Below are positions 227 through 20,305 of a stretch of 64,000 bases of DNA, one piece after another (the stretch's first letter is position 1; each line of letters opens with the position of its first letter). The stretch covers positions 248,001 through 312,000 of the forward strand of contig CAJIYK010000001.1 in assembly GCA_905181685.1 (NCBI GenBank), in the 5' to 3' direction. The notes beneath the pieces were generated by a model. It had not been told where the DNA came from. It was given only the letters and a program-made list of their open reading frames with translations, and did not search any database. The position numbers and the translations under genes were made by a program. This DNA is from Methylophilales bacterium BACL14 MAG-120910-bin43 (GTDB lineage Bacteria; Pseudomonadota; Gammaproteobacteria; Burkholderiales; Methylophilaceae).

Positions 227-228
227 AA

Positions 229-420: not shown

Positions 421-467
421 CTTTTAACTATAATTTAATTCATAAGAGCTATCAATGAAAACTTCGA

Positions 468-1361: not shown

Positions 1362-1373
1362 AGTCTTATAAAA

Positions 1374-2159
1374 TTAAGCATATGCATTAAGATTCACTTC
1401 TCCTTCGAAACTGATTTCAGCTGACCCACTTAAAGTCATTGTATTTTTCATATCCCAATCTATCTGAACAACTCCGCCATCCATGTTTACAGTGATAGGT
1501 GTCTCTAATTTATTTTTTGAAATAGCAACCGCGGCAGCAGCACAAGCTCCTGATCCACAGGCCATAGTAAAGCCACTACCCCTTTCGAAAACCTTAAGTT
1601 GTATTGAATTTTTATCTATAATAGACATAAAGCCTACATTAATTCCATCCTTCCAAGTGCTTTGGATATCAAGAGCGACATCTTGATAATTTTCTTCTGA
1701 AATATTGTTGTCTGCCAAATTTATGACGGCATGAGGATTACCAATTAAGACATGATCATAATTAACTCCATGCCTATTAATTGTTGTTCTGATATCAGGT
1801 AATCCCATATCAACTTTAACCAAACCTTCACTATCTTGTGAAAGTAATGTGATGCCTGATAGCGTTTCAACTTTTATTGTTGAATTAGCAGATAATCCGT
1901 AATTTTTTATATACTTATAAAAACAACGCGCACCATTACCACATTGCTCAACCTCACCTCCATCAGAATTAAAGATACGGTATTTAAAATCAGCATCGTG
2001 GGAATCACTTTTTTCAATTATGAGTAGTTGATCAAATCCGATACCAAAGTATCTGTCAGATAGTTTTCTAATTAATGACTTTGATAAATTAAATTCTCTA
2101 TCTCTTTGGTCAACAACTATAAAGTCATTTCCTGTGCCTTGCATCTTTGTAAATTTCAT
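1374..2159 (-). CDS. dapF: Diaminopimelate epimerase
   Basis: DapF interconverts LL- and meso-diaminopimelate in the cytoplasm, supplying lysine and the peptidoglycan cross-linking residue. The 261-residue protein starts MKFTKMQGTGNDFIV and carries both catalytic cysteines: Cys73 in EQCGNGARCF and Cys201 in TMACGSGACAA. It is slightly shorter than the usual 270-280 residues but has no gap in the core motifs. It is divergent from metK and followed by xerC. Confidence 0.95.
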   Translation of the reverse strand: MKFTKMQGTGNDFIVVDQRDREFNLSKSLIRKLSDRYFGIGFDQLLIIEKSDSHDADFKYRIFNSDGGEVEQCGNGARCFYKYIKNYGLSANSTIKVETLSGITLLSQDSEGLVKVDMGLPDIRTTINRHGVNYDHVLIGNPHAVINLADNNISEENYQDVALDIQSTWKDGINVGFMSIIDKNSIQLKVFERGSGFTMACGSGACAAAAVAISKNKLETPITVNMDGGVVQIDWDMKNTMTLSGSAEISFEGEVNLNAYA

Positions 2160-2226
2160 AAGTATCTTTTTGAAAGTCTTTTTGATATTCTAGCTCTTTT
2201 TAAAGTTTAACTAAAAAAATATCCTT

Positions 2227-3373
2227 ATGAAAAATTATCTTTTTACATCTGAATCTGTTTCAGAAGGTCATCCTGATAAAGTTGCTGATTTAATATCTGA
2301 TGCTATTTTAGATGCAATTTTAGAACAAGATCCTGTTGCTAGAGTCGCAGCAGAAACGCTAACAAGTACAAATTTGGTGGTGCTTGGCGGAGAAATTACA
2401 ACAACAGCAAAAGTCGATTACGAGCAAGTTGTCAGAGATACCCTTGAATTCATTGGGTATGACAATATTGACTATGGAATTGATTATAAAACTTGTGAAG
2501 TGCAAATAAAGTATGGCATTCAATCGCCTGATATTGCCCAAGGTGTGGACGGAGCGTTTGATGATCCATTAGATCAAGGTGCTGGCGATCAAGGTCTGAT
2601 GTTTGGTTTTGCAAGCAATGAGTCTGATCAGTTTATGCCACTGCCCATTCATCTTGCACATCGCTTAGTAGAAAGACAGTCCTTTATAAGGAAAAAAGGT
2701 ATTTTAAATTGGTTAAGGCCGGATGCTAAATCACAAGTGACGATGCAATATAAAGATGGAATTCCAGAGAGAATAGATACGATCGTGCTATCAACACAAC
2801 ATGCACCAGAAATTTCTTTGAAAGGACTTGAGGGAAGCAGTAATTGAAGAAATTATAAAACCAGTACTTCCTAAAGATCTTATCAAGGGAGAAATTAACT
2901 ATTTAATCAACCCGACAGGTAGATTTGTTATTGGCGGACCTCAGGGTGATTGCGGCTTAACGGGTAGAAAAATTATAGTTGATACTTATGGGGGTGCTGC
3001 ACCGCATGGCGGGGGTGCTTTTTCAGGAAAAGACCCAACAAAAGTTGATCGATCAGCAGCTTATGCTGCAAGATATGTTGCAAAAAATATCGTTGCTTCA
3101 GGCTTAGCTGATAAATGTTTAGTTCAAGTTTCATATGCGATTGGTGTTGCTAAACCAACATCAATCATGGTCGATAGCTTTGGTACAGCAAAACTATCTG
3201 ATGAAGAGCTTTCAAAAATTGTCATGGAAAATTTCGATCTTCGACCAAAAGGTATCGTGAATATGCTTGATCTTTTGAGGCCTATATATAGAAAAACGGC
3301 CGCTTATGGACATTTTGGCAGAACAGAACCCGAATTTTCATGGGAAAAGATCGATAAAAAAGATTTAACCTAA
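2227..3373 (+). CDS. metK: S-adenosylmethionine synthetase (one frameshift)
   Basis: MetK makes SAM from methionine and ATP. The N-terminal part starts [19 protein letters not shown] and includes the [10 protein letters not shown] motif; the C-terminal part contains [13 protein letters not shown] and [19 protein letters not shown]. Together they match the usual 380-390 residues. The reading frame breaks at 2824-2825, where a GG pair appears to hold one extra G; removing it restores [15 protein letters not shown] cell cannot easily live without MetK, so the indel is most likely a sequence error. The gene heads a SAM-cycle cluster (metK, ahcY, metF), but ahcY-metF has its own promoter and riboswitch. 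Confidence 0.93.
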
Positions 3374-3381
3374 ATGAAAAA

Positions 3382-3420
3382 TAATTCATAAGGCCTTGAT
3401 TTAGTGCTAATTATGAATTA
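3382..3420 (+). other. Inverted repeat downstream of metK
   Basis: TAATTCATA at 3382-3390 and its exact complement TATGAATTA at 3412-3420 could fold into a 9-bp, AT-only stem with a 21-base loop directly after the metK stop. There is no T-run behind it, and its right arm overlaps the proposed ahcY promoter, so a terminator role is doubtful. It might serve as a weak 3' stabilising stem for metK mRNA. Confidence 0.3.
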
Positions 3421-3424
3421 ATAT
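3396..3424 (+). promoter_or_regulatory. Probable ahcY-metF promoter
   Basis: TTGATT (3396-3401), a 17-base spacer and TAATAT (3419-3424) form a plausible sigma-70 promoter, 4/6 matches in each box. Predicted transcription start is near 3431, exactly where the SAH riboswitch aptamer begins. That agreement is the main support; the boxes alone would be weak in such AT-rich DNA. Confidence 0.5.
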
Positions 3425-3430
3425 CCATTT

Positions 3431-3502
3431 TCCAAGGAACGTTGCGAGATTATTCAATCCCAGGCTTGGATTACAAATGATAAATTTGTAACGACGTTCA
3501 CC
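3431..3502 (+). promoter_or_regulatory. S-adenosylhomocysteine (SAH) riboswitch aptamer
   Basis: The leader of ahcY has the layout of the SAH riboswitch class. P1 is formed by TCCAAG (3431-3436) with CTTGGA (3465-3470). Within it a P2 stem pairs GATT (3448-3451) with AATC (3456-3459), followed by the conserved CCCAGGC. A seven-pair P3-type hairpin is made by TACAAAT (3472-3478) and ATTTGTA (3484-3490). The pseudoknot pairs GAACGT (3437-3442) with ACGTTC (3494-3499). Conserved blocks GGAACGTTGCGA, CAGGCTTGG and AACG.CGTTCACC match the family pattern as I remember it. SAH binding is known to turn these elements ON, so AhcY is made when SAH accumulates. Confidence 0.85.
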
Positions 3503-3535
3503 ATTTACCGTACCAGAACGGGATAATAGGTGAAC
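3496..3535 (+). promoter_or_regulatory. Alternative hairpin of the SAH riboswitch (candidate expression platform)
   Basis: GTTCACC (3496-3502) is exactly complementary to GGTGAAC (3529-3535), with an inner CCGT/ACGG stem (3508-3511 with 3518-3521). The left arm reuses bases 3496-3499, the 3' strand of the aptamer pseudoknot, so the two structures exclude each other. No U-run follows, so it does not look like an intrinsic terminator. The AAAGGA Shine-Dalgarno of ahcY lies about 30 bases downstream and is not in the stem. How the switch is read out is therefore open. Confidence 0.5.
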
Positions 3536-3579
3536 AAAATCCCCAACTGGTCACAATTATTTATTTAAAGGAAAATAAA

Positions 3580-4995
3580 ATGAATACAGTGACTGAAGCT
3601 AAAACTAAAGATTACGTAATATCAGATATTAAGCTAGCTAAGTTTGGTAGGCAAGAAATTGCAATTGCTGAAACAGAAATGCCAGGCTTAACAGCGATTA
3701 GGGATGAGTATGCCGCAAGCCAGCCTTTAAAAGGCGCGCTAATTAGTGGTTCCTTACACATGACAATTCAAACAGCTGTTCTTATCGAGACGCTTGTTGC
3801 ATTAGGTGCAGAAGTTAGATGGGCATCATGCAACATATACTCAACTCAAGATCATGCTGCGGCTGCGATTGCAGAAGGTGGAACGCCTGTTTTTGCTTTT
3901 AAAGGTGAGAGTCTTGATGAGTATTGGGAATTTACACATCGCATTTTTGAATGGGAAAGTGGAAAATTTTCTAACATGATTTTAGATGATGGTGGTGATG
4001 CTACTCTTCTGCTTCATTTAGGGGTTAAGGCTGAAAAAGATATTTCAGTGCTAAATAATCCAACCTCTGAAGAGGAAATATGTTTATTCTCAGCGATAAA
4101 AGGAAAATTAAAAACAAATCCCACATGGTATTCAGAAAGAATTGGTCACATTAAAGGAGTTACTGAGGAAACTACAACAGGAGTCATGAGGCTCTATCAA
4201 ATGTTCCGGGATGACGAATTAAGTTTTCCTGCAATCAATGTAAATGACTCAGTTACTAAATCAAAATTTGATAATCTTTATGGCTGTCGTGAATCATTAG
4301 TTGATGCAATTAAAAGAGCCACTGACGTTATGGTTGCAGGAAAAATTGCAGTCGTTGCTGGTTATGGTGATGTCGGTAAGGGTTCTGCCCAAGCACTGAG
4401 GGCACTATCTGCACAAGTATGGGTGACAGAAATTGATCCTATTTGTGCATTACAGGCAGCAATGGAAGGGTATCGAGTTGTTACCATGGATTATGCTGCT
4501 GAACATGCAGATATTTTTGTGAGTGCAACAGGAAATTACCATGTGATCACACATGAGCATATGAAGAAAATGAAAGATCAGGCAATCGTTTGTAATATTG
4601 GACATTTTGATAACGAGATTGATGTTGATTCACTATCAAATTATGAGTGGGAAGAAATTAAGCCACAAGTTGATCATATTATTTTCCCAGATAAAAAAAG
4701 AATAATTCTCCTTGCTCAAGGTCGATTAGTTAATCTAGGTTGTGGTACAGGGCACCCAAGCTATGTTATGGGTTCATCGTTTGCAAATCAAACTATTGCT
4801 CAGATTGAATTATTTACTCAGCCAGAAAAATATCCTCTGGGTGTTTATACATTACCTAAGCATTTAGATGAAAAAGTAGCGATCCTACAATTAAAAAACT
4901 TAAATGCTGTGTTAACAGAGCTGACTCCTGAACAAGCAAAGTACATTGATGTTGATGTAACAGGGCCTTTTAAGCCAGATACTTATCGTTATTAA
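3580..4995 (+). CDS. ahcY: Adenosylhomocysteinase (SAH hydrolase)
   Basis: AhcY hydrolyses SAH to homocysteine and adenosine, clearing the product inhibitor of all SAM-dependent methyltransferases. The 471-residue length matches the long proteobacterial form. An NAD-binding Rossmann motif [17 protein letters not shown] and the C-terminal [10 protein letters not shown] end are clear. A good Shine-Dalgarno (AAAGGA, 3567-3572) precedes the ATG. It is the first gene behind the SAH riboswitch and is followed 8 bases later by metF, placing SAH removal and methyl-folate supply on one transcript. Confidence 0.97.
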
Positions 4996-5003
4996 GTAAT
5001 TTA

Positions 5004-5835
5004 ATGGCTCGGAATACAACATTAAGTTTTGAATTTTATCCCCCTCAAACTCAAGAGGGGGTTACTAAGTTGATGCAAACAGCTAAAGAACTTAATGAGT
5101 ATAATCCTGAATTTTTTTCAGTTACTTTTGGTGCAGGAGGTTCGACCAAAGAAAAGACCTTAGATACTGTTTTAGATCTCAAAAAGTCAGGCTTTAATGC
5201 AACACCACACATCTCATGTATCTCATCATCAAAAGCTGAAATTAAAGAGTTATTAGATAAATATAAGTCGAATAAAATAAATCATTTAGTGGCACTTCGA
5301 GGTGATAACCCTTCGGGGAGCATAAATTTTGGCGAACTTAATTATGCAAATGAGTTAGTCAATTTCATTAAGTCAGAAATGGGAGATACTTTTAAAATTG
5401 ATGTGGGCGCTTATCCAGAGGTTCATCCCGAATCAGAAACGTGCAAAACAAGATTTTATAAACTTTAAGAATAAAGTTGAAGCCGGTGCAGATTCAGCAA
5501 TAACTCAGTTTTTTTATAATGTTGATGCGTATTTCAAATTCGTTGATGAATGTCAGAAGAATTCAATAAATATCCCGATTGTCCCAGGGATTATGCCAAT
5601 TTATAACAGTAAACAACTTATTAGGTTCGCAAATAATTGTGGAGCTGAAATACCAAGATGGTTAAAATTTAAACTAGAAGATTATTCAGACGATTTAGAT
5701 TCACTAAGAGAGTTTGGCGTAGATTTTATAAGTGAACTATCTGAAACATTGATTCAATATGGCGTCCCAAGCATACATTTTTATTCATTAAACTATTCAA
5801 AGACATTGTCAAAGATAATAAAAAATATATCTTAA
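5004..5835 (+). CDS. metF: Methylenetetrahydrofolate reductase (one frameshift)
   Basis: MetF reduces 5,10-methylene-THF to 5-methyl-THF, the methyl donor for homocysteine. Starting MARNTTLSFEFYPPQT, it has the TIM-barrel start SFEFYPP, HISCISSSKAEI, VALRGDNPS and AAYPEVHPE-like GAYPEVHPESE. The frame breaks at about 5437-5448 (one extra base) and resumes as KQDFINFKNKVEAGADSAITQFFYN through to PSIHFYSLNYSKTLSKI. Full length is about 277 residues, as expected. It is co-transcribed with ahcY under the SAH riboswitch. Confidence 0.93.
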
Positions 5836-5838
5836 ATG

Positions 5839-6288
5839 CTAATGAAGTTCTGTACGTTTATTTTGAAATAGTGAGTCTTCGACAAATAGATAGCTGTTTT
5901 CTTTCCCACTTTTCCATAATGTCATCATAACAATCCATCTCATTTCATCAATGTTGATAGATTTTTGATTCAAAATCATAATTTGATCTAAAATTACTTC
6001 AAATTCTGTTGAATTAAGAATTTTTGCGTTGAGTAAAAATGTAAGAAAGGTAAAAGCCTCACTAGAAATTTTCTCATATTCTTTTTTTGATAAAACTCTT
6101 AAGCTATTTTTGTTTGTTAGCTCAAAACCATTACTAATTTTTTCCAAATGATTAAACCAATCAAACGCAGATGAAATATCTTTGTCATTAAAGCCTGCTT
6201 CTTCAAGCTCAACTGTAATGTCATTCATATTTAATTTAGGTTTTGTACTTATATAATTTTCGAATAGATAAATGAGTAGATCTAACAT
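5839..6288 (-). CDS. smg: Smg protein (DUF494)
   Basis: A 149-residue cytoplasmic protein beginning MLDLLIYLFENYI, the usual opening of the Smg/DUF494 family, with the conserved end containing MRWIVMMTLW. The family sits near def, fmt, dprA and topA in many proteobacteria, as here (divergent from def). Its molecular function is not established. It is convergent with metF, with a 3-base gap. Confidence 0.85.
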   Translation of the reverse strand: MLDLLIYLFENYISTKPKLNMNDITVELEEAGFNDKDISSAFDWFNHLEKISNGFELTNKNSLRVLSKKEYEKISSEAFTFLTFLLNAKILNSTEFEVILDQIMILNQKSINIDEMRWIVMMTLWKSGKENSYLFVEDSLFQNKRTELH

Positions 6289-6330
6289 TTTTTTAGCCCT
6301 AAAGTTTGGTTAAAGAATATAAATCCTTAT

Positions 6331-6339
6331 TGTTATAAT
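6331..6339 (+). promoter_or_regulatory. Extended -10 promoter candidate for def operon
   Basis: TGTTATAAT at 6331-6339 is a perfect extended -10 (TGnTATAAT) in the smg/def divergent spacer, with a predicted start near 6346 and a leader of about 48 bases. No good -35 is seen (TTAAAG at 6310-6315 is the nearest), as often holds for extended -10 promoters. It would drive def-fmt-rsmB-DUF4390-ntrYX. Confidence 0.5.
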
Positions 6340-6393
6340 ATCAGATATGTAACTAAAGCAATTAATTCAAATTTTTTTTAGCAGAAATATAAA

Positions 6394-6888
6394 ATGACAA
6401 CACTAAACATTCTAAAATATCCTGATCCAAGGCTATACAAGGTTGCCAGTGAGGTAAAGATTGTTGATAGTAAAACAAAACAATTAATCTCAGCAATGGC
6501 TAAAACGATGTATGAAGCACCGGGAATTGGTTTGGCAGCAACGCAAGTAGATGTTCATCAGAGAATAATAGTAATTGATATATCAGAAGATAAGGATGAT
6601 TTGCTAGTTTTGATAAACCCAGTTCTCCTTGAAAAAAAAGGAGAGAAAATTAATCAGGAAGGTTGCTTGTCTGTACCTGAAATTTTCGAAAAAGTTAAAA
6701 GGGCTGAATGGATCAAAGTATCTGCTTTAGACGAAAATGCTAAAAAATTCGAATTAGAAGCCGAAGGCTTGTTAGCTGTTTGTATTCAACATGAAATGGA
6801 TCATCTGGAGGGAAAAGTATTTGTTGATTACTTGTCAAATTTAAAGAAAAGTAGAATTAAGAAAAAATTATATAAGATGAGTAAATGA
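6394..6888 (+). CDS. def: Peptide deformylase
   Basis: Def removes the formyl group from the N-terminal methionine of new proteins. All three metal-site motifs are present in the 164-residue protein: GIGLAATQ (45-52), EGCLSVPE with ligand Cys91, and QHEMDHLEG with His133, Glu134 and His137. It overlaps the fmt start by 4 bases (ATGA), the classic def-fmt pair that balances formylation and deformylation. Intact despite lying in a frameshift-rich stretch. Confidence 0.97.
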
Positions 6889-7841
6889 GCATAAAAAAAA
6901 TAAGCATTATTTTTGCTGGAACCCCAGAATTTGCTGTGCCAGCATTAGAAAAAATCAATTTAGCTGGTTTTGAAATAAAACTTGTTTTGACACAGCCTGA
7001 TAGAAAGTCAGGTAGGGGCATGAATATTAAAAAAAGCCCCGTGAAGCAAAAATCAATTGAGCTTGACATACCTGTGTATCAACCTGAAGTTTTAATAAAT
7101 AATAAGGAGGCTATAAATAAAATCACTTCAAAAAAAGCAGATATTTTAATTGTTGTAGCCTATGGCTTAATTATTCCAGACGAAATTTTAAACGCATATA
7201 ACGGACATATATACAATATTCATGCTTCCCTGTTACCTCGGTGGCGAGGGGCTGCACCGATTCATAGAGCCATAGAGGCGGGAGATAAGGAAACGGGCAT
7301 TACAATTATGAAGATTGTCAATAAACTTGATGCGGGTCCTATGATAATGAAAGAAAAATTATCTGTTTCAGAAGAAGATACGACTGATTCTTTATCTAAA
7401 AAATTATCAGATTTGGATCATGTTGATTCACTAGTTTACTAAACAATATTGAAAGAGGAAAAGTAATCAAGCTGGAGAAACAAAATGAAGAGAATGTTAC
7501 TTATGCAAAAAAAATAAATAAATTAGAGGCTATCGCTGATTTTAATAATTCTCCTGAAGTTTTATGTCAGAAGATTAGGGCATTTAATCCATTCCCAATG
7601 ATTAATATTAATTTTGAAGGAAAGAGTTTGAAGATTGTTAAAGCAAAAATTTATAATAAAGAAATTAAGCATAATTTAGCTATCAGGAAAATTATTCTTA
7701 CATGGAGAAGACTTATTATTAAAGCTTTCTTCAGGGATCTTAAAATTAGAGGAAGTTCGACTTGAAGGAAAGAAAACAATGATAGCCTCAGATTTTGTAA
7801 AAGGGCATCAAGTCATGAAAATTAATTCAGTTAATCAGTGA
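6885..7841 (+). CDS. fmt: Methionyl-tRNA formyltransferase (two frameshifts)
   Basis: Fmt formylates initiator Met-tRNA using 10-formyl-THF. The N-terminal domain is intact: [23 protein letters not shown], and the catalytic region [20 protein letters not shown]. The frame then breaks near 7434 (probably one T missing), continues as [18 protein letters not shown], and breaks again near 7690-7700, continuing [20 protein letters not shown] to the typical C-terminal [15 protein letters not shown]. The reconstructed length of about 315 residues is normal. The stop (7839-7841) overlaps the GTG start of rsmB. Confidence 0.9.
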
Positions 7842-9110
7842 AAGAAGCTCAACTTACTGCCGCAGGAATAGTAATAGATGTAATGGAGGGCAATAATTTA
7901 AATAAAGTTTTTCAAAAATATTCACAAGAAAATAAAATTAATCCAAAAGATATTTCTCAGATAAAAGATCTTGTTTTTGGTACCCTTCGCTCCTATGGGA
8001 AAACAAAATTTGTTATCAATAAATTAGTTAAAAGAACACCATCTAACCCTTAATTTTAACATTGCTTCATATCGCACTATTCCAACTCATTTCTAATCGG
8101 TCAAATTCATACACAGTAGTAGATCAAGCTGTTTCAGCATCAAACATGATAAATAAAAGACACACTAAATTCATAAATGGTGTGCTTAGATCCTTTCTTA
8201 GGGAAAAGGTAAGTATCCTAGATAAAGCTGAAAAGATTGATGAAGCAAAATATAGCTATCCTATTTGGTGGATAAATCTGATAAAAAATGAATATCCAAA
8301 ATCCTGGGAAAATATTCTTGATATAGGAAACTCACATCCACCCCTTATTATTAGAGTAAATATAAAAAAAGGAAGTATAAGCAACTACATTAAAAAATTG
8401 GAAAAATATAATATTGAGCATCTATATTTAGGTATGGAAGCAATATTAATAAAAAAACCAATGCCAATAGATTCTTTACCTGGTTTTAAAGAGGGGGAGG
8501 TTTCAATACAAGATTATGGAGCTCAACTCGCAACACATTTACTAGATTTAAAGAAAAATTATAATGTTTTAGATGCTTGCGCAGCTCCAGGTGGTAAGGC
8601 TTGTCACATGAATGAGATAGAAGAAATTAAATTGACAGCAGTAGAGGCCGACAAACAAAGAGTGGAAAGAATTAATGAAAACCTAAACAGGCTTGGCATA
8701 CTTTTAAAGTAATAAATTCTGAAATTAAAGCTGGCAACGCATGGTGGGATAAAAATTTATTCGATAGAATTTTATTAGATGCACCATGTTCTGCATCTGG
8801 AATAGTAAGGAGACATATAGATATAAAATGGTTAAGAAGGCGTGATGATCTTGATTATTTCCACGAAAAGCAGTTTCAATTACTAAGAGCATCATGGGAG
8901 ATGTTAAAGCCTTTAGGTAAACTTCTGTATGTTACCTGCTCAATATTTGAGAAAGAGAATAGATCAGTAGTAAATAGATTTTTAAAAGAAGAGAAAACTG
9001 CCATAGAAATTAAAATTAAATTTCCAAAAAACGTGAATGTAGATGATAATCAGCTATTACCTTCATTAATTCATGACGGATTATTTTATGTGCTATTTCA
9101 AAAAAAATAA
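7838..9110 (+). CDS. rsmB: 16S rRNA m5C967 methyltransferase RsmB (two frameshifts)
   Basis: RsmB (Sun) methylates C967 of 16S rRNA. It starts with GTG at 7838, overlapping fmt. The N-terminal NusB-like domain (AAGIVIDVMEG, VFGTLRSYG, TVVDQAVSAS) is followed by the methylase with VLDACAAPGGKACHM (SAM site), LLDAPCSASGIVRRH (first Cys) and VTCSIFEKEN (catalytic Cys). Breaks lie near 8040-8048 and 8698-8706; repaired, the protein is about 424 residues. The DAPCSASG motif marks this as the true RsmB, unlike the relative at 35646-36911. Confidence 0.9.
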
Positions 9111-9650
9111 TTTACATTTATTACTTTTTTTTATCTTTATTTCTAATCTGAGCCTAACGTTTGCAAACATAAATAATCAAATTAGCATAAGTCAAATTAA
9201 GCTAGAAAATAACCAAGAAAATATTGTTATTGATCTACAGCAAAGCTCGCAATTATCCCCAAAAATCATAGAGCTTCTTGAAAGAGGTATTCCAATTGCC
9301 TTTAATCTAAAAATTGACTTAATCAAAGAAGAAAAGTATTGGTTTGATAAGGTAATAGATCAGAATAATTTTGTATACCAAATTAAATATTTTTCACTGA
9401 GAAAAGTTTTTGAGGTTATTGATATAAATGGAAATAAAAAAATTTTTGAAGATGAACAAGAGGCTATTAAAAATTTACTAAGTGACAAAGAAATTATAAT
9501 AAAAAAATATAGTCATCTAAATAATACAAAATTAAAAATATGGGTAGAGCTTGATAAAAAAAGATTACCGAAAGCAATTCAGGCAGATATATTCAACAAG
9601 TCGTGGGATGCAGGTCAAACATAATAATTTTTGATATGAATAAATTATGA
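9088..9650 (+). CDS. DUF4390 secreted protein, ntrY neighbour
   Basis: A small protein with a hydrophobic signal sequence (LLLFFIFISNLSLTFA) then a beta-rich region with ERGIPIAFNLKIDL and YWFDKVI, the pattern of the DUF4390 family, which sits between rsmB and ntrY in betaproteobacteria. Function unknown. As written the frame stops at 9624; adding one base near 9617 continues it as SNIIIFDMNKL, gives the family-type tail (W, S and F spacing) and ends at 9650 with an ATGA overlap onto ntrY, so an indel there is likely. The ATG at 9088 is preferred over 9073, which would overlap rsmB more. Confidence 0.75.
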
Positions 9651-11792
9651 AGTACCTAATTACCTCAGTAGCTGTAATTGGATTAGGATTTTTAATTCTT
9701 TTAGCACAGTCATTATCGAATACTGACTTAGTATCAAATGATACTTTTATAGTTTTACTGGTAATTTCTATAGCCTTTGTTGTATGTCTATTTCTTCTTA
9801 TTATTTTCCAAGTATTCAAATTACTTCAAAGTGTAAGAAAAGAAATTACTGGTAGCAAATTAACATTACGATTAGTCATTTCATTTGGATTGATGGTCCT
9901 TATTCCTGTGTCAATTGTATATTTGGTATCCGTAAACTTCCTAACAAAATCTATTGAGTCATGGTTTGATGTTCGTGTTGAGTCAGCCCTCGAGGGAGGT
10001 TTAAATCTTGGGCAAAAGACAATAGACATTTTAATAGATGACATTGAATTGAAGGGGAAAAGTATTGCATATGCAATTGCAAACAAGCCATATGAAAAAA
10101 GAGAGGACATCTTAATTGATTTAAGAGAAAAATTTAGTATATCAAGCGCAGTTTTATATAAAAATGATGGAAGCATATCTGCAATATCAGAAAGTAATCC
10201 AACTATAAGGTCGTCAACTATAAGCCTGGAAGATATAAGAAGAGTCCAAAATGGATATTTTGGAAGAATTGAAGAAACAAAAAATAAGAATCTATTACTT
10301 AAAGCATTTATCCCAATTTTTTATAACGATAAAAATCAAACAATAGATTTAATTGGTTCAGAAGAAATATTAATGTTGTCTCAACCGGTTCCCGAGTCTA
10401 TATCAAATATGGCAATTTCAGTCGAGTCAGTATTCGAAGAGTATCAGCAACTAAGGTATAGTCGAAACTCATTAAAAATTATTTACACGTTAACATTAAC
10501 AATCGTTCTCATGTTAGCAATCTTAACTTCGGTTGCAATTTCGTTTGTTTTAAGTAGAAGATTTACAAGGCCACTCTCACTATTATCCGAAGCAACAAAT
10601 CAAATAGCAAAAGGGAATTATAAAAAAATAATACCAGAGGTAGGTAAGGATGAATTGGGAATATTAGTCAAATCGTTTAACTCGATGACATATCAACTAG
10701 ATACTGCCACAAAAAATTCTAAAAAAAATAGAAAGCGCTTGGAGGAGGCAAGAGCATTTTTAGATGCCACTCTTACAAATTTAGCAACCTCAATTGTGGT
10801 TATTGATAAAAATATAAATATAAAATTGTATAACAAGTCGGCAGCAAAATTACTGAATTTTAAATTATCAAATATGGTTGGTGAGAATTTAAAAAATGCA
10901 ATTAAAGATATGCAGAAATTTCAAACGGTAATTAATTTCATTGAAGAATCATTAGGTAAAAAAAATAAGATCACAGATATATCAAAAGAAATTGTTATAG
11001 GTTCACAGGAAGATGAAAAAACTTTAATCTTAAAACTTTCAGCATTACGTGAAAGCTCTGGTATTTCGTATATCCTTGTATTAGAAGATATTTCAACAGT
11101 TGCAAAAGCCCAGAGGCAAATTGCCTGGAGTGAGATTGCAAGAAGATTAGCACATGAAATTAAGAACCCTCTAACTCCAATTCAGCTATCAGCTGAAAGA
11201 GTTCAAAATAAAATTATAGATAAGTTAAATGAGGCAGACAAAGAATTATTAAATAAATCAACTAATACAATAATTAAACAAGTAGATGCCTTAAAGTTAA
11301 TGGTTAATGAATTTGCTGAATATTCTCGTACTCCAAGATTGTAAGAAAAAGTATTAATATTACTGAGCTAATTGATGAAATTTCTTATTTATACTCTGAT
11401 CAAAATATTGAAATCAAAAAAAATTATCCTAAAAAAATTAAAGAAATAAAAATAGACGAAAATAAATTTAGGCAGGTATTAATAAATATTTTTGATAACT
11501 CAAAAGCAGCAACTGAAAAAATAAAGAATCCCAAAATATTATTACAGTAAAATATAATAAAAATTTCATTATGCTTAAATTTGAAGATAATGGGATAGGG
11601 ATACCAACAGAAATAATTGATAAAATTTATGAGCCATATGTCACATCAAAAAAAACAGGAACAGGACTGGGATTAGCAATTGTAAATAAAATAATCGAAG
11701 AACATTCTGGTGATATAGAAATAAAAAATACTAAACCAAACGGAGTATGCATATTAATCACTCTTCCTCTGATGGAGATTAAAAATGGATAA
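9647..11792 (+). CDS. ntrY: Sensor histidine kinase NtrY (two frameshifts)
   Basis: A large membrane sensor kinase: two N-terminal hydrophobic segments (about 1-25 and 35-60), a third near 85-105, an extracytoplasmic region, a TM near 280-300, then HAMP, a PAS domain (VIDKNINIKLYNKSAAKLL), HisKA with the phospho-acceptor His near 504 in RRLAHEIKNPLTP, and HATPase with FEDNGIGIP and TGTGLGLAIV. Frames break near 11338 (one A missing) and 11538-11541. The kinase is paired with ntrX directly downstream (8-base overlap). NtrY is known to act in nitrogen or redox/envelope sensing; the signal here is unknown. Confidence 0.88.
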
Positions 11793-13021
11793 GCTAAAAA
11801 TTAAACTTCTAATCATTGATGATGAAAAAGATATTAGAGATTCACTAAAAGATATTTTAATTGACGAGGGTTATGAAATTCACCTGGCTGAAAATGCGTT
11901 GGAAGCAAAAAAAATTAAATTATCCCAAACTTTTGACTTAATTTTACTTGATATTTGGATGCCAGATATTGATGGCCTTTCCTTACTAAAAGAGTGGGCA
12001 TCCAATAATGAAATAAATTGTCCAGTTGTTATGATGTCTGGACATGGAACTATTGATACGGCGATTGAGGCAACAAAAATTGGCGCAACCGATTTCCTAG
12101 AGAAACCTATATCATTACAAAAACTTCTTAAGACTATTTCAAGCGCCCTTAAAAATTCGGTTGAGTTAAAAAAGACTGATAAGACCTTTTTTGACGAATG
12201 TAATTTAAAGTTTATAAAAGATATTGAAGCTGAAATTAATCAGCTTAAGACGAATGATTTGGTTGCTTTTGTAGGTAATAAAACTAATTTTATAGAAATT
12301 TTTATATCTATGCTATTTAATACTAATTACTATTTAGTGAAGAAAGTTTCTGATATAAATAGTAATTTATTAAATTTAATTCAGACATCAGGGCTAAAAT
12401 TTATATTGTTCGAAAATTGCCTTGATGGAGCAATAAATTATCATGATAATAAAAAATTATTTAATGAGTTAATTGCGAATAAAATAAAGATCATTTTTTT
12501 AGAAAAAGAGAAAGATTTACTTGAGAGTTTTTTTGAAAATGAAAATAATGCTGTTATTTTTGAGCCACCAAAGTTATCTAATGATAGAGATTTAATCCCT
12601 GATTTATCTAATGCATTGCTTACATTTCATTTAAATAAAAATCCTAATATATCTTTTAAGATTCTTGATATTTCGGCCTTAAATACATTAAGAAATAAAG
12701 CTGGAATAGAAAGTTTAGACCAACTTGATAAAATTATCGTATCACTAATTAAGACATCAGATACTGAACTAATTGATAAAGATGATGTTGATAATTACTT
12801 TAATCAACATAATTCATCTATTGATCATAAATAGTAATGATGAAATAAAAATAGATTTTTTATATGAAAAACCTCTTAAAGAATCAAGAGATTTGTTTGA
12901 AACTATGTATCTAAAACATCACCTTAGTCAAAATAAGTCTATTACCGACTTAGCGAAAAAAACAGGAATAGAAAGAACACACCTTTATAGAAAGCTTAAA
13001 CAATTAGGGATTAAGGCTTAA
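11785..13021 (+). CDS. ntrX: NtrX-type response regulator with degenerate AAA+ domain (one frameshift)
   Basis: The receiver domain (1-115) is complete: Asp12/Asp13, phospho-acceptor Asp56 in LLDIWMP, Ser85 and Lys107. A FIS-type helix-turn-helix ends the protein (TDLAKKTGIERTHLYRKLKQ). Between them, where NtrC-family proteins have a sigma-54-activating AAA+ ATPase, about 190 residues show no Walker A (VAFVGNKTNF in its place), no GAFTGA loop, and FILFENC where LFLDEI (Walker B) is expected. One extra A at 12829-12831 breaks the frame before the HTH. Position after ntrY supports the NtrX name, but it probably works as a phosphorylation-switched DNA-binding protein, not a sigma-54 activator. 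Confidence 0.8.
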
Positions 13022-13786
13022 TTCAGTAACTACTGGAACATGATCTGATGGTCGTTCAAGAGTTCGTGTCGTTTTATCAATGTAAGCTTTTTTTATAAAA
13101 GTTAATAAGTTTTTTGATAAAAGAATATGATCAATACGCATCCCTAAGTTTCGTTTAAAAGGTATTCTATAGTCCCACCAGGAGAATTCATTTGCATTAG
13201 GATTCATCTCTCTAAATGTATCAATGAATCCTAGATTAAGTAATTTATCGAAATACTCTCGCTCTTGAGGCGATACTAAAATTTTGCCATCCCATGATTT
13301 TGAGTCATAACAATCTAGCTTTGTTGGTGCAATATTAAAATCTCCAGTAATAATATTTTCAATTCCATCAATTTTTTTTTGTAAAAAACTAATAAATGAT
13401 TTGAGCCAATTCATTTTATATTCAAATTTATCTGAGTTAAGTGATTGTCCATTAGGGATGTAAGCAGAAATAACACGAAACTTAGGATCTTCATCATTAG
13501 GGTATATTCCAGATATCAATCTTTTTTGTTCATCATAGAAATTAGGAATATCAAATTGAACATCAATTAATTCTTTATTGCTTATTATGGCAACACCATT
13601 ATAGGTATTTTGTCCGTTATGATATGAGAAGAGACCTCTCTTTTCAAAAACATCATGCGGAAAATTATCATTATTTTGCTTTGTTTCTTGTAAACAAAGA
13701 ACATCAGGTTGATTCAAATTTATCCAATCTAAAACTTGAGGAAGTCTAACTTTTAAAGAATTTACATTCCACGATGCTATCTTCAT
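13004..13786 (-). CDS. xthA: Exodeoxyribonuclease III
   Basis: An AP endonuclease / 3'-5' exonuclease of base-excision repair, 260 residues. Motifs of the EEP family are in order: MKIASWNVNSLKVRL, LQETK (metal-binding Glu), ITGDFNIAPTKLD, and the C-terminal SDHVPV with the catalytic His. It follows prlC on the minus strand, its ATG overlapping the prlC stop by one base, and runs into ntrX, overlapping 18 bases at the 3' ends. Confidence 0.95.
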   Translation of the reverse strand: MKIASWNVNSLKVRLPQVLDWINLNQPDVLCLQETKQNNDNFPHDVFEKRGLFSYHNGQNTYNGVAIISNKELIDVQFDIPNFYDEQKRLISGIYPNDEDPKFRVISAYIPNGQSLNSDKFEYKMNWLKSFISFLQKKIDGIENIITGDFNIAPTKLDCYDSKSWDGKILVSPQEREYFDKLLNLGFIDTFREMNPNANEFSWWDYRIPFKRNLGMRIDHILLSKNLLTFIKKAYIDKTTRTLERPSDHVPVVTELSLNP

Positions 13787-15799
13787 TAATTAGTTAGTCC
13801 ATGATGGGTTAGCAAAGCATTTATTTTTGGTTTTCTTCCCCTAAAAGCAATAAAAGATTCCATTGCAGTTCGAGACCCTCCTTTAGAGAGAATTTCTTTT
13901 TTAAATTTATTACCTGCTGTTTTTGATAAAATTCCGATTTCTTCAAATAAGCTATAGGCATCAGCAGAAAGCACTTCGGCCCATTTATAGCTGTAGTAGG
14001 CTGAAGCATATCCTCCTGAAAAAATATGACTAAAGCTATGGGGGAATTTGTTCCACGTAGGTGTATTTATAACTGAAACTTGAGCTCTAACGTTGTTCAG
14101 AATCTTCATAAAACTTCTATTCTTTGGTGAATATTCTGTGTGAAGTTTAATATCAAATAATGCAAATTCAACTTGCCTCAATGTTTGTAAACCTGATTGG
14201 AAATTCTTTGACTCTAACAAATTATTAAAGAGCTTCTTAGGCATATAGGTATTAGTTTTTTTGTTATACGACATATCTCTTATGACAGACCATTCCCAGC
14301 AATAATTTTCCATAAATTGACTGGGTAGTTCAACTGCATCCCACTCTACTCCCTTTATTCCTGAAATAGAATATTCTGTCACTTCAGTTAGAAGATGATG
14401 AAGCCCATGTCCAAATTCGTGAAATAAAGTGATAACCTCATCATGTGTTAAGTATGCTTTACCATTTGATGGAGGAGTAAAATTACAAGTCAGATATGCA
14501 ACGGGGCTTTCTTCTTCATTCATAAATTTATATTTAGAAATTGCTTCATCCATCCAAGCACCCCCACGTTTCTCTTTCCTCGCATATAAATCTAAATAGA
14601 ATTTCCCTACTAACTGCTTCTTCTTATTAAATATTTCAAAAAATTTAACATCTTCATGCCATGTTGATGCATTTGTTTCATGAATATCTAAACCATAAAT
14701 CTTTTTGCAAATATTAAAAAGCCCATTCAATACATTATTAATAGAAAAATATTGTTTAATTTCTTCATCAGTAATACTGAATTTTTCCTTTTTTAGTTTT
14801 TCAGAAAGATAAGGCATATCCCATGGCATTACTTTAGTAATATTAAATTCTTTTGCGATATCATTAATATCATCAATATCAGCTAAGGCCGATTTCGTTG
14901 CTTTTTTTGTAAGTTTTGATAAGAAAGATATAACCTCTTCCGAAGATTTAGCCATCTTAGTTTTTAAGAGCATTGATGAGATATCTGAGTAGCCAAGTAA
15001 CTTTGACATCTCATATTTAAGTTTCAGTATATGATTTATATTTTTTGTATTATCAAACTTACTATCCATCAATGAAGAAGCTTTTGTATTATATGCAGTA
15101 TAAATATCTTTTCTTAGTTTACGATTATCTGCATATTGCATGATTGGTAAATAGCTTGGGAAGTCAATGGTAAATAAAAAACCCTTCGTTTTTTTAGCTT
15201 TAGCTTTTAAATGTGCAGATTTAACAACATGATCTGGAATTCCTTTTAATAAATTTTTATCTGAAATAACTAATTTAAAATTATTCATAGAATCTAAGAT
15301 ATTTTCATCAAAAGAAGATGATAGCTTTGATAGTTTGCTTTGAATTGCTTTAAATCTTGTCTTTTGTTTTTCATGTAAAGCAACACCAGAAAGCTCAAAA
15401 GATATAATTTCATTCTTAATAAGTTTTTTTTGTGAATGAGATAATTGATTATTATTTTGAAGTATATTTTTATATTTATTATAAAGAATATGGCTTTGAC
15501 CTAAATGAGTAGAATATTCAGTAACTTTTGCAAGCGCTTGGTTATAGACTTTCCTATATGATGTTGAGCTTTTAACTGCGTTAATATGATTAATGTAAGA
15601 CCAGACTCTGTTAAGTCTCTCACTGCATATCTTCTAAGGGAGCTACAAAGTTCATCCAATTAGGTGATTCGCTCATAGATTCTATTTTTGAAACAACTTT
15701 GAGATTTTCGTTAATTACTTTATTTATTGCAGGAATCACGTGTTTAGGTTTTACGTTAAAAAAATCCGGCAATTTATCTCTTACTAAAAAAGGGTTCAT
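13786..15799 (-). CDS. prlC: Oligopeptidase A, M3 family (one frameshift)
   Basis: A cytoplasmic zinc metallopeptidase that degrades oligopeptides and cleaved signal peptides. The HEFGHGLHH motif, near residue 460, supplies the two zinc His and catalytic Glu. The C-terminal FSHIFSGGYASAYYSYKWAEVLSAD is typical. The gene starts at ATG 15799 as MNPFLVRDKLPDFFNVKP; a frame break near 15625 separates the first 58 residues from ERLNRVWSYINHINAV. The repaired length of about 670 residues is normal. It forms a pair with xthA. Confidence 0.9.
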
Positions 15800-15863
15800 A
15801 TTAAATAGAAAACTTGAAATTAAAACATTGTGGCTTTATTAAACAAAAAAAATTCAAATTAAA

Positions 15864-16196
15864 TTAATTTTCAGCTGAAAAATCAGTTCTTTTGATATTC
15901 TTGTGAGATTGATGGCTCTTAATTTTGTCTTTATGCTTAATAATTTGTTTGTCGAGTTTGCTAACTAATAAATCAATTGATTGATACATATCAGAACTCG
16001 AACATTTAGCATGTAGATCAGTCTTGTGAAGGTAAATATTACCTTCAGCATTATGAGTGATATTATCAACACTCAATATAATTTTAATTTCTGAAATTTC
16101 TTGAGAATGTCCCTCTATTTTTTTTAGTTTTTTCCCGATATGATCTTTTAAGCCATCGGTAATCTCAAGGTGATGTCCTATTATGTTAATTTTCAT
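15864..16196 (-). CDS. hpf: Short ribosome hibernation promoting factor
   Basis: 110 residues starting MKINIIGHHLEITDGLKDHI, the beta-alpha-beta fold of the short HPF/YhbH class; the long-form dimerisation domain is missing. HPF binds the 30S A and P sites in slow-growing cells and promotes 100S dimers. It lies 9 bases downstream of rpoN, its usual place in proteobacteria. Confidence 0.92.
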   Translation of the reverse strand: MKINIIGHHLEITDGLKDHIGKKLKKIEGHSQEISEIKIILSVDNITHNAEGNIYLHKTDLHAKCSSSDMYQSIDLLVSKLDKQIIKHKDKIKSHQSHKNIKRTDFSAEN

Positions 16197-16205
16197 ACAA
16201 ATATT

Positions 16206-17513
16206 TTATACTTTTCTTTGGTTAGAGGGTAAGATTTTTAATTTGATACGGTACTTTGCAACAGTTCTTCTGGCTATTTCTATTCCATCGTCGTTTAGAA
16301 TCTTACATATCGCAGAATCTGAATAAGGCTTTTTGGGATTCTCTTTGCTAATTAGGGTATTTATCTTACTAAGAAGTGATCTTGATGAAACATCTGGTGT
16401 TTCATTCCCAACCGAAGAGTTAAAGAAAAACTTTATTTCGAATATTCCATGTGGTGTGGCAATAAACTTATTTGAAGAAATTCTCGAAATAGTTGATTCA
16501 TGCAATTCAAGATCAGATGCAATTTTCTTTAATGTTAAAGGTTTGATGCCAGACTCTCCATGTTCTAAAAAGTTAATCTGATTTTGCATAATTGCTCTAG
16601 AAACTCTTAAAATTGAAATTGATCTTTCATTTAAATTCTTTATCAACCATTTTGCTTCTTGAAATTTTTCTTTCAAATCTTGTTCAAGTGAATTACTCAA
16701 TAAATCTTGAGCATTTTCTTCTAATTTCAGTTTAATATGATTATCTTCATTCAAAGTTGTTATCCACTGACTACCCTCTTTTTTAACAAAAACATCCGCT
16801 GCTATATATGATGTTCGATCAGTTTTTTGAAAGATTAGCCCAGGTTTTGGATTTAAATTTTTAATTAAGGAGACAACATCCGCTAGTTCTATTTCACTAC
16901 ATTTTAAATTCTTTTTTAATTCCTCATAATTTTTGTTTCCCAGGACGCTTAAGTGATTTTTTATTAATTTCTTAGCAAGATTACAAATCTTTTCTTGATT
17001 ATTGATAAGTTTTAATTGAATAGTTAAACATTCGGTTAGATTTCTTGCACCAATACCAGGGTGTGTTGAATTTTGTATTATTTTTAATAACTCCTCGACT
17101 CGTTGTATTGCTGGTTTTTTTTCAATAGGGATTGAGTTTCTAATATCTTCTGTAGAGTCAATTAAATATCCATTTTCATCAATTGAATCTATTAAGTAAG
17201 ACAGAGTTAATTGGTCCTCCTCGCTAAAGTTAAAAATAGCAATATTCTCAACTAAATATTCTCTTAGAGTTTGGTTTATTTCTTCATTATTTAAAATATC
17301 ATAATAAGTTTCATCTGATGAATACTTAGATTTTGAACTTTGATTAGATAATAAAGTTGTATCTTTTACTTTAAGAAAAATATTATCTGATAGATATTCC
17401 TCAATCAGGTCATTTAGTTCTGATTGTGATGCGTGAAGAAGCTTTATTGATTGCTGTAGCAGGGGAGTTAATTTTATAGATTGGGATAATCTTAAATTTA
17501 AACCTAACTTCAT
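16206..17513 (-). CDS. rpoN: RNA polymerase sigma-54 factor
   Basis: 435 residues, shorter than the usual 470-490 because the acidic region II is small. Region I is clear (LRLSQSIKLTPLLQQSIKLL), as are the core-binding domain and, near the C-terminus, the RpoN box ARRTVAKYR. Sigma-54 needs an AAA+ activator to open promoters; the only candidate in this window, NtrX, lacks the required motifs. The gene sits in the conserved lptC-lptA-lptB-rpoN-hpf order, 1 base after lptB, and is intact. Confidence 0.95.
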   Translation of the reverse strand: MKLGLNLRLSQSIKLTPLLQQSIKLLHASQSELNDLIEEYLSDNIFLKVKDTTLLSNQSSKSKYSSDETYYDILNNEEINQTLREYLVENIAIFNFSEEDQLTLSYLIDSIDENGYLIDSTEDIRNSIPIEKKPAIQRVEELLKIIQNSTHPGIGARNLTECLTIQLKLINNQEKICNLAKKLIKNHLSVLGNKNYEELKKNLKCSEIELADVVSLIKNLNPKPGLIFQKTDRTSYIAADVFVKKEGSQWITTLNEDNHIKLKLEENAQDLLSNSLEQDLKEKFQEAKWLIKNLNERSISILRVSRAIMQNQINFLEHGESGIKPLTLKKIASDLELHESTISRISSNKFIATPHGIFEIKFFFNSSVGNETPDVSSRSLLSKINTLISKENPKKPYSDSAICKILNDDGIEIARRTVAKYRIKLKILPSNQRKV

Positions 17514-17514
17514 T

Positions 17515-18237
17515 TTAAAGTATAAAGTTCTCGCCTAAATATATATCTTTGACACTCTGGTTTTGAGCGATAACTTTAGGCGTACCTTGTGCAAAAATTT
17601 CACCTTGGTTAACAATATATGCTTGATCACAGATACCTAAAGTTTCTCTAACGCTATGGTCAGTGATTAAGATGCCAATTCCATTAGAGGCGAGTTGTTT
17701 GATAATTTTTTGAATATCAATGACGGCAATAGGATCAATTCCGGCAAAAGGTTCATCAAGAAGAATAAATTTTGGTTTATTGCCAAGCATCTTGCAATTT
17801 CAACTCTTCTTCTTTCCCCACCCGAAAGGCTAATAGCTGTATTTTTTCTAATGTGTCTGAATATTTAATTCTTTTAAAAGGTTTTCAAGCTCTAATTTAA
17901 TTTGATGCTTACTTAAATTTCGAAGCTCTAAAATGCTTATGATATTTTCACTTACATCCATCTTTCGGAAAATTGATGGTTCTTGTGGTAGATATGAGAT
18001 ACCTTGTTTTGCTCTTATGTGAATGGGAGTTTTTGTTAAATTTTTCTGATCTAATAAAATGTTGCCATGATCAGCTGCTATTAAACCAACTATCATATAA
18101 AAAGTTGTTGTTTTTCCTGCCCCGTTAGGGCCTAGAAGACCTACTATCTGTCCACTTTCTATTTTTAATGAAACATTTTTAACAACAATATTTTTTTTAT
18201 AACTTTTTCTTAAGTTTTGTATAGTTAAAGTAGACAT
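17515..18237 (-). CDS. lptB: LPS export ABC ATPase LptB (two frameshifts)
   Basis: LptB powers extraction of LPS from the inner membrane by LptFG. Walker [12 protein letters not shown] (near 36), the Q-loop YLPQEPSIF, the signature [16 protein letters not shown] and Walker [14 protein letters not shown], then the H-loop ITDHSVRE, are all present. Two indels break the frame: near 17845 (one extra base before HIRKNTA) and near 17785-17795 just after the signature. Repaired length is about 240 residues. Start ATG overlaps the lptA stop by one base. Confidence 0.93.
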
Positions 18238-18755
18238 TATTTTTTAGGCTTTATTATTGCTTTTGTACGCCCTTTTTTTGTCTCTGAACCGTTCTCATCT
18301 TTTCTTGATAGTGCTTGAGCAAATTCACTAGTGGCATCATACATAATATAATCTCCCCATACCTCGTCATCACCTCTTTTTACAAAGGCTTTTTCATATA
18401 AGTGAATTTTATCCATGTGACCATCGTACTCAATACGAAGCGCCTTGCCTTCAATATATTCATCTGAACCTTCCATTTTTTGTCTAAAAGTTGTTGGGTT
18501 ACCTATGGAAGTACTATGTTGAAAACCTTGTCTATCTTCTCTAATAATAAGTTTATCTGCATTTATTAAGAGTGATCCCTGGGTAAGAATGACATCCCCT
18601 TCATAAGTACTAGTATTTTTTGTTTCTTCTACTGTCATTGTATCAGCCTCAATTTCAATAGGTTTATCACTATCTGCCTCTTCTGAAATAGCAAAATGAC
18701 AGAATAAAATTGATATTACGAAAACATAATATATATATTTATTTTTTGTACTCAA
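18237..18755 (-). CDS. lptA: LPS transport periplasmic protein LptA
   Basis: Starts with TTG at 18755, overlapping the lptC stop. A signal sequence (YYVFVISILFCHFAISEE, cleaved after FAIS or so) precedes the OstA-type fold: PIEIEADTMTVEETKNTSTY, GDVILTQGSLLINADKLII and a positively charged tail. 172 residues is normal. LptA forms the periplasmic bridge that carries LPS from LptC to LptD. Intact, between two broken neighbours. Confidence 0.93.
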   Translation of the reverse strand: MSTKNKYIYYVFVISILFCHFAISEEADSDKPIEIEADTMTVEETKNTSTYEGDVILTQGSLLINADKLIIREDRQGFQHSTSIGNPTTFRQKMEGSDEYIEGKALRIEYDGHMDKIHLYEKAFVKRGDDEVWGDYIMYDATSEFAQALSRKDENGSETKKGRTKAIIKPKK

Positions 18756-19344
18756 TATTTGAATCTTTCATCACCTGTTGGTTTTTCATAGCGTACTTTT
18801 ACATTGCTTAAAAGTTTTAAAATTCCATCTTTATTATCATACTTCATTCCAACTCCATCTATTTCAATATTTGGTTCTTGAATCATTTTTACAGCTTTTT
18901 GGCTTGTGACAATATCTAATTCTGAATATATATTTAGTTCATGAGTATAGAGTTTTAAAGTTTTTTTTGTTTTTGTAGGAAGCCTTATGAGAATAGCATT
19001 TTCTTTAAGGATTATTTCCTCACCCTTGTCGCTTATTTCACCTACATCACTATAAATAGTCGAATGTTTTTTTTATTTTTATATTTAGTATAGAAGGGTT
19101 TAAACAAAGAGGTTTTATCTTCTTCTTTAAAATGTTTCATATACTCAGCTTGAAGGGAGGATTGTAAATTCCCATCTTCATCCGTTTTAGTTGAATCAAA
19201 ATCTTTAAGAAAGAATGATGGCCCACTATTTTTACTTATCGTAAAGTTTTTATATTCATTTATAACCTCTTCTTTAAGCCAAAAAGATGCTAATGCAACA
19301 ATAGCTATAAAAATAAAAGCAAAAGCCGTTGAAAGTAAATTCAT
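18752..19344 (-). CDS. lptC: LPS export protein LptC (one frameshift)
   Basis: A single N-terminal membrane anchor (LLSTAFAFIFIAIVALASFWL) followed by a periplasmic beta-jellyroll region: FLKDFDSTKTDEDGNLQ is the typical opening. The frame breaks inside the T8 run at 19067-19074; corrected, it continues HSTIYSDVGEISDKGEEIIL to NVKVRYEKPTGDERFKY and stops at 18752. LptC passes LPS from LptBFG to LptA. It follows kdsD by 7 bases, with no kdsC between. Confidence 0.88.
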
Positions 19345-19351
19345 AAAATAA

Positions 19352-20305
19352 TTATAAAATTTTAGCCTTGAAAAGGCTTTGCAGTGTTAGAGAGCCAACT
19401 AAAGAATTATCTGTATCAGTAATTAAAAAAGATGTAATTTTTTGTTTTTCCATAATTTTAAGTGCCTCTATCGCCATTTGTTTTCCATTCAATGTAAAGG
19501 GTGAGTTTTTCATTACATTAGAAATAGGCGTATCAAGACTAATTGCTTAAAAGTGATCTTCTTAAATCACCATCAGTGAATATTCCTTTTGGTACATTTT
19601 GCTTATCAACAATGGCTGTAAAACCTAATTTTTTATTTGTAATTTCCTCTATTGCATCTTTAATAGTAGCTTCAAGATTAATTTTTGGTGTAGATTCTAA
19701 ATTAATCATAATATCTTTAATATGAACGATTTTACCAAGGAGCCACCTGGATGAGATCTTGCAAAATCCTCTGTACTAAAATCTCTTTCATTAAGAACAC
19801 AAACTGCAAGTGCATCGCCCAATGCTAACATTAAGGACGAACTTGCTGTTGGTGCAAGCCCAGGGGGCATGCCTCTTTTGTAACTGAGGAATTAATATGA
19901 ATATTACTTTCAGTGAATAAAGTAGAGTTAGTATCACCAGTAATACTAATTATTTTTGCTCCTATCCTCTTAATAAGTGGGATAGAAGATGAGTTCTTGG
20001 CTTTCTCCTGAATTAGAAAGAAAGATAACAATATCTTTCTCCGTAATCATACCAAGGTCACCATGGCTGGCTTCACCAGGATGCATAAAGAAGGATGGTG
20101 TTCCTGTACTTGAAAGAGTAGAAGCTATTTTTCCAGCAATATGACCTGATTTTCCAATACCACTTAAAATAACTCTTCCTTCACAGCGAAGAATGCATTC
20201 CACCGCTTCAGAGAATTCGTTTGATATTTTGTCACTCGCTTTTAATATTTCATTTGCTTCAATATTTAAAACATCTTGAGCAAGCTTTATTATTTTTGGT
20301 GACAT
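19352..20305 (-). CDS. kdsD: Arabinose-5-phosphate isomerase (four frameshifts)
   Basis: KdsD converts ribulose-5-P to arabinose-5-P, the first step of Kdo synthesis. The SIS domain (RVILSGIGKSGHIAGKIASTLSSTGTP, HPGEASHGDLGMI, LSNSGES) is followed by two CBS domains (PKGIFTDGDLRRSLL; ITSFLITDTDNSSLVGSL). The frame breaks near 19985, 19858, 19740 and 19545; each is repaired by one base and every piece fits the family, giving about 318 residues. Such dense indels with intact motifs suggest sequence error. Confidence 0.9.

Follow-up and report, generated by a model that had tools for sequence, protein, structure and literature searches.

A probable eroded AAA+ domain in the PlrR-like NtrX response regulator of a Methylophilaceae bacterium

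The NtrX response regulator of Methylophilales bacterium BACL14, which we take to be a small marine methanol-eating bacterium, appears to carry an AAA+ domain that is eroded rather than absent. Its plrR-like gene (11785-12834, plus strand) lies in the window, by which the whole analysed stretch of 64,000 nucleotides is meant, as an ORF of 349 codons that joins a receiver to the eroded AAA+-derived domain and is frameshifted before the HTH. Profile similarity, a confidently predicted fold and purifying selection all point to such a domain, and the sequence shows a descendant of the bEBP AAA+ domain in which the P-loop, the acids of Walker B and the loop that contacts sigma-54 are gone. In this the protein is a typical NtrX of betaproteobacteria, and the main point is already known, since the available part of PMC13001219 (2026), citing Bonato et al. 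2016, states that betaproteobacterial NtrX is without the AAA+ domain of alphaproteobacterial NtrX. What is new here is the wording. While that source speaks of a domain that is lacking, the domain of the window protein is eroded yet predicted to be folded, which shifts the description away from a lacking AAA+ domain and towards a pseudo-AAA+ domain. The word "stripped", chosen in the first-pass annotation of this DNA, is likewise too strong, since AAA+ profile similarity and a confident fold prediction remain.

The receiver (PF00072, residues 9-118; 11809-12138, plus strand; E 1.3e-28) is complete and is the sole Pfam family on the 349-aa ORF. Its residues D12, D13, D56 (codon 11950-11952), S85 and K107 are invariant in 68 aligned NtrX sequences, including that of the window. 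The central eroded AAA+-like domain (residues ~133-337; 12181-12795, plus strand) is recognized by a profile match and by the structural model. As had been noticed at first reading, it keeps only traces of the nucleotide-binding motifs: the Walker A position reads GNKTNF (within FVGNKTNF; 12274-12291, plus strand), the P-loop lysine being missing where expected, the Walker B position reads FILFENC (12400-12420, plus strand), and there is neither a GAFTGA nor a normal Walker B. Searched by itself, the central part (12190-12834) yields no Pfam match at E<=1, and the window protein has no match to PF00158 (Sigma54_activat) at the same threshold. The FIS-type HTH and the C-terminus are read in another frame (12830-13021, plus strand, inside ORF 12773-13021), where PF02954 is found with E 4.6e-5 and, at 23.5 bits, above its cut-off of 22; PF00165 (AraC HTH) obtains a slightly better E at the same HTH, but stays under its own cut-off. 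The claim that receiver and HTH are both intact therefore holds for the former, while the latter is out of frame in the window, although in frame with the rest of NtrX in relatives.

Upstream are found ntrY, encoding a PlrS-like sensor kinase (9647-11789, plus strand, in the three frames 9647-11356, 11338-11541 and 11538-11789), a gene for a PlrP-like DUF4390 protein (9073-9624, plus strand; PF14334, E 2.2e-23) and rsmB (7874-9107, plus strand, three frames; Pfam RsmB/F), so that the gene order is rsmB-DUF4390-ntrY-ntrX; Pfam also identifies a formyl transferase. The same genes, with identities read from the sequence, are present as unbroken ORFs in LSUCC0665, a strain of the same genus and presumably a member of the marine OM43 clade: fmt, rsmB, the gene at the plrP position, ntrY and an ntrX of 413 codons. 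With NF051870, the 349-aa ORF scores 111.6 bits and the full-length LSUCC0665 NtrX 136.8 bits, in both cases over the receiver only and far from the cut-off of 600 bits. According to the available part of PMC13001219, an NtrYX cluster with this gene order is of the beta/gamma-proteobacterial PlrSR type. The PlrR/NtrX proteins of the PlrSR subfamily in Bordetella and Herbaspirillum described there share with the window not only this order, but also the receiver and FIS HTH and the absence of working AAA+ motifs.

The extent of the motif loss was followed through five groups of proteins. The genus is represented by 31 genomes, 25 of them with an NtrX match, from which 24 proteins were read, including the window's own (L009) and a partial one (L014); L026 yielded no protein. 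The other Methylophilaceae contribute 24 proteins from 58 matching genomes (L060 came from the order search). In the Burkholderiales order search, 106 of 150 genomes matched at E<=1e-80, 103 of these outside the Methylophilaceae, and 83 proteins were read, while for the other Gammaproteobacteria 174 of 274 genomes matched at E<=1e-70 and 49 proteins were read. NF051870, finally, matched in 77 of 120 genomes, and the 30 proteins above cut-off were read; judging from a Caulobacter control, this set would be alphaproteobacterial. There were 188 aligned proteins, of which eight were dropped before counting, five as the same genes as other loci (L059, L061, L062, L063 and L192), two as second copies (L175 and L176) and one as a wrong ORF (L115); L116 yielded no protein. 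Walker B was tallied at its site as D[DE], the looser pattern hhhD[DE] matching also away from the site.

The P-loop pattern GxxxxGK is found in none of the 24 genus NtrX and none of the 24 of other Methylophilaceae, so that close relatives with a normal AAA+ domain were not seen among these 48. It is present in 5 of the 83 other Burkholderiales, twice (L071 and L120) off the Walker A site, in 31 of the 49 other Gammaproteobacteria, a sample biased by the choice of best-scoring loci and of 20 proteins picked by hand, partly for short length, and in all 30 NF051870-type NtrX and all 22 genus NtrC. The motif [LI]FGxE is distributed similarly: 0/131 in Burkholderiales NtrX, Methylophilaceae included, 32/49 in the same biased gammaproteobacterial sample and 30/30 in the NF051870 type. 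At the Walker B site, D[DE] occurs in 0/24 proteins of the genus, 2/24 of other Methylophilaceae, 3/83 of other Burkholderiales and 15/49 of the biased gammaproteobacterial set. G[AS]F[TS]GA is absent from all 210 NtrX but present in 20 of 22 genus NtrC. In agreement with the early remark that the segment which should bear GAFTGA is shorter than in NtrC, the median length of the central region is 207 residues in genus NtrX versus 249 in both genus NtrC and the 30 NF051870-type NtrX.

These numbers describe a graded loss. GAFTGA is gone from all NtrX counted, the P-loop persists in all NF051870-type proteins and, within a biased sample, in the majority of other Gammaproteobacteria, it is gone in nearly all Burkholderiales read, and in the window's genus the whole site is eroded. 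Since the NF051870-type proteins, which share with the window protein the domain order and the absence of GAFTGA (0/30), differ from it in that all 30 keep both GxxxxGK and [LI]FGxE, loss of Walker A is indeed, as first proposed, a step beyond that of GAFTGA. The suggestion that such decay is special to this gene, on the other hand, has to be abandoned. It is common to 48 of 48 Methylophilaceae and, with few exceptions, to the 83 other Burkholderiales, and the available part of PMC13001219 already has it in print; a peculiarity of this organism is thereby ruled out. There is nevertheless a difference of degree. In Burkholderiales outside the genus, the Walker A site often still resembles GEPGSGxELC, with the lysine replaced, whereas in genus NtrX even this remnant is mostly gone, and about five residues are absent at the site in the LSUCC0665 group. 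The window protein, with its Walker A glycines and Walker B region mostly gone, is more eroded than most other Burkholderiales NtrX that were read. Among the 83 proteins, GEPGxGK is kept at the Walker A site only in L144, L145 and L147, all from one family (f39).

In spite of this erosion, the AAA+ ancestry of the central domain can be recognized by profile comparison. A profile built from 22 genus central regions, without that of the window, matches other Methylophilaceae with E 6.6e-20, other Burkholderiales with E 2.6e-13 and NtrX of other Gammaproteobacteria with E 5.7e-7, over 195 columns and with a probability of 92%. A five-sequence profile that includes the window still matches other Burkholderiales (E 1.4e-8, 182 columns) and, over only 82 C-terminal columns, other Gammaproteobacteria (E 2.8e-5); three reversed profile controls give E 0.07-0.39. 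AlphaFold predicts the window protein with confidence on the basis of 68 sequences (pLDDT 92.9, pTM 0.80), with block means of pLDDT of 84-98 in the central domain, and the full-length LSUCC0665 NtrX somewhat less so (pLDDT 89.2, pTM 0.72). The top 11 Foldseek matches of the whole model are chains of NtrC1, Brucella NtrX, NtrC4 and LuxO, aligned over 380-401 columns with E 1e-15 to 1e-18, whereas chains that match by the receiver only reach about 1e-10 at best. The TM-scores of these 11 matches are only 0.36-0.40, with an rmsd of 15-18 A, which may be put down to domain orientation in the model. The VIA-align rows are occupied almost wholly by the receiver and hence say little on the central domain.

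Selection on the domain is purifying but weaker than on the receiver: NG86 estimates of dN/dS are 0.08-0.52 for the central region versus 0.03-0.12 for the receiver in 15 close-relative pairs, which are non-independent and one of which has a saturated dS. Since the central region is constrained, if less so than the receiver, a structural role fits better than free decay. A slow drift towards loss of the domain may nonetheless be under way, because selection on it is the weaker.

It is very likely that the gene encodes the response regulator of a PlrSR-type, betaproteobacterial NtrYX system that is phosphorylated and binds DNA without ATP at sigma-70 promoters. NtrY would phosphorylate Asp56 of NtrX by analogy with Bordetella PlrR, upon which the receiver would dimerize and the HTH could bind DNA at sigma-70 promoters with no need for ATP hydrolysis, while the remnant domain might stay folded and act as a spacer or as a scaffold for the dimer. 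The phosphatase activity of NtrY might be tuned by the PlrP-like protein in the periplasm, as proposed for Bordetella, and sigma-54 transcription in this organism would depend on NtrC and not on NtrX. The receiver residues and the HTH are read from the sequence; the remainder of this scheme is drawn by analogy from Bordetella PlrR and the bEBPs without GAFTGA, as described in the available parts of PMC13001219 and PMC10274813. In Bordetella, phosphorylation by the cognate kinase and an essential regulon have been reported, and phosphorylated PlrR is essential in vitro (PMC13001219, part available). An ATP-independent, phosphorylation-driven regulator, as had been envisaged from the sequence, therefore seems to be the likeliest function.

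There are precedents for bEBPs that act without GAFTGA at sigma-70 promoters. The available part of PMC10274813 lists NtrC of Rhodobacter capsulatus, NtrC of Caulobacter and VpsR of V. cholerae (printed there as VspR), of which VpsR is said to work without ATP. The two NtrC proteins differ from the window NtrX in this respect: that of R. capsulatus still requires ATP binding, and the growth of Caulobacter in defined medium depends on the Walker A and B residues of its NtrC (same source, same part), while the window NtrX has lost those residues. Brucella NtrX, of the NF051870 type, is represented by crystal structures which according to their entry titles contain ATP and ADP (5m7n, 5m7o and 5m7p). 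Among the matches listed in the literature on NtrX, PlrSR, OM43 and loss of NtrC or rpoN, there was no study of OM43 NtrX, and a literature search found no experiments on this NtrX protein. The available passages on NtrX in PMC7240162, PMC12194929 and PMC5491218 make no mention of lost AAA+ motifs.

A more far-reaching idea, speculative and on the whole unlikely, is that the emptied AAA+ domain of betaproteobacterial NtrX in general is retained in a folded state, free of nucleotide and with a new role, be it that of a dimer scaffold or of a sensor for another ligand, and that OM43 illustrates its divergence under selection. If this were true, the OM43 lineage would show how far a selected pseudo-ATPase can diverge. 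The small OM43 genomes would offer a simple setting for testing what such a protein does. An improbable alternative would be that the central domain was repurposed: a different ligand or partner might occupy the emptied pocket, so that NtrX would respond to another signal in addition to phosphorylation. The confidently predicted fold and the purifying selection agree with this, as does the sequence G..GNF that replaces G..GK in part of the genus, a conserved replacement that might mark a new role. VpsR and FleQ, relatives among the bEBPs with PDB entries, some with c-di-GMP in their titles, are found among the whole-model Foldseek matches, but such similarity is expected anyway from common descent. 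Furthermore, the site varies strongly between subclades, down to the deletion of about five residues in the LSUCC0665 group. The G..GNF form is seen, for example, in L016, L017 and L019-L025. The scheme of a PlrSR-type regulator that keeps the remnant as a structural element is preferred here.

It is very improbable that ntrX has become a pseudogene in this organism or is undergoing terminal decay, in spite of the interruption of the window copy. Compared with the intact relative G018, the frame of ntrX changes between 12828 and 12830, with a net shift of one base. In the same syntenic comparison, over about 19 kb, no fewer than 8 of 20 reference genes are spread over more than one frame in the window, namely, as named here, metK, metF, fmt, rsmB, ntrY, ntrX, an M3-family peptidase and one more. 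Because so many compared genes are split in the same way, metK, metF and rsmB among them, the break in ntrX is most likely a sequencing or assembly error. The assembly comprises 795 kb in 6 contigs and is 51% complete. Full-length NtrX proteins of the genus are encoded by single ORFs (407-415 aa), and dN/dS is well under 1 in 15 of 15 pairs, both of which argue against a pseudogene. The shift is located 3' of the central region and is therefore not the cause of the motif losses; as a source of the absent motifs it is ruled out also by the open, full-length relatives that are equally without them. The first-pass annotation had correctly described a 1,050-bp stretch as open (ORF 11785-12834, 349 codons) and concluded that no frameshift effect was involved, which is true of the central region but not of the whole gene, with its shift near 12829. 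Any "truncated gene" in this window calls for caution (the compared part being 1-19400). From their sequence, topoisomerase-like ORFs at 49051-51523 appear to be split too.

The rpoN gene for sigma-54 lies nearby, as had been stated from the outset (16206-17513, minus strand), with its three Pfam domains complete, including the activator-interacting domain. It is hardly credible that NtrX still activates sigma-54 by means of replacement motifs that go unrecognized, for although rpoN is encoded so close by, none of the 24 genus NtrX, one of which is partial, has the P-loop, [LI]FGxE or the GAFTGA segment, and NtrX is retained in two genomes that have lost rpoN at its usual site. The motifs thus support the earlier view that this protein should not be able to activate sigma-54. 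When the 31 genus genomes were searched with PF00158 at E<=1e-6, none of the 25 NtrX places was among the matches, whereas a strong NtrC-type match was obtained in 24 of the 31, in two of them frameshifted. NtrC and NtrX have a homologous receiver-AAA+-HTH architecture, but in the genus NtrC keeps Walker A in 22 of 22 proteins and G[AS]FTGA in 20 of 22. Another gene of the sigma-54 activator type, for which a search had been recommended, exists in the window's genome, the NtrC at G000:C1:69375-69876 with an intact Walker A, and the absence of any such activator is ruled out. This ntrC is likewise split between frames, which is why its GAFTGA segment is missing from the listed ORFs. All four of the genus NtrC that were compared with NCBIfam have TIGR01818 ntrC as their best match, three above the cut-off and the fourth, a copy cut off by a contig end, under it. 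Only weak PF00158 matches are seen in G005, G009, G011, G020, G021, G023 and G026, where NtrC may be missing. In G011, which retains rpoN, this may be a real absence, since this genome is given as 99% complete.

The rpoN gene is intact in the window and was found in 24 of the 31 genus genomes. PF04552 detected none in G002, G004, G007, G014, G021, G024 and G030, and PF04963 was above its cut-off in none of these seven. A strict link between rpoN and GAFTGA is doubtful, because G[AS]FTGA is present in the NtrC of four of them, G002, G004, G007 and G030 (59-91% complete), though rpoN is undetected; the absence of rpoN there may be an assembly gap. At the syntenic site of G014 (L341:8022-8066) and G024 (L342:10539-10587), some 45 bp separate the usual rpoN neighbours, hpf and a gene that we presume to be lptB. 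The NtrC proteins of these same two genomes (L300 and L299) keep Walker A but no longer have GAFTGA, whereas G[AS]FTGA remains in the other 20 of the 22 genus NtrC. From the sequences, this looks as if sigma-54 and the loop that makes contact with it had been lost together, and it may represent a natural experiment in which nitrogen control survives without sigma-54. Since NtrX is kept in both rpoN-less genomes, it does not follow sigma-54 in this genus.
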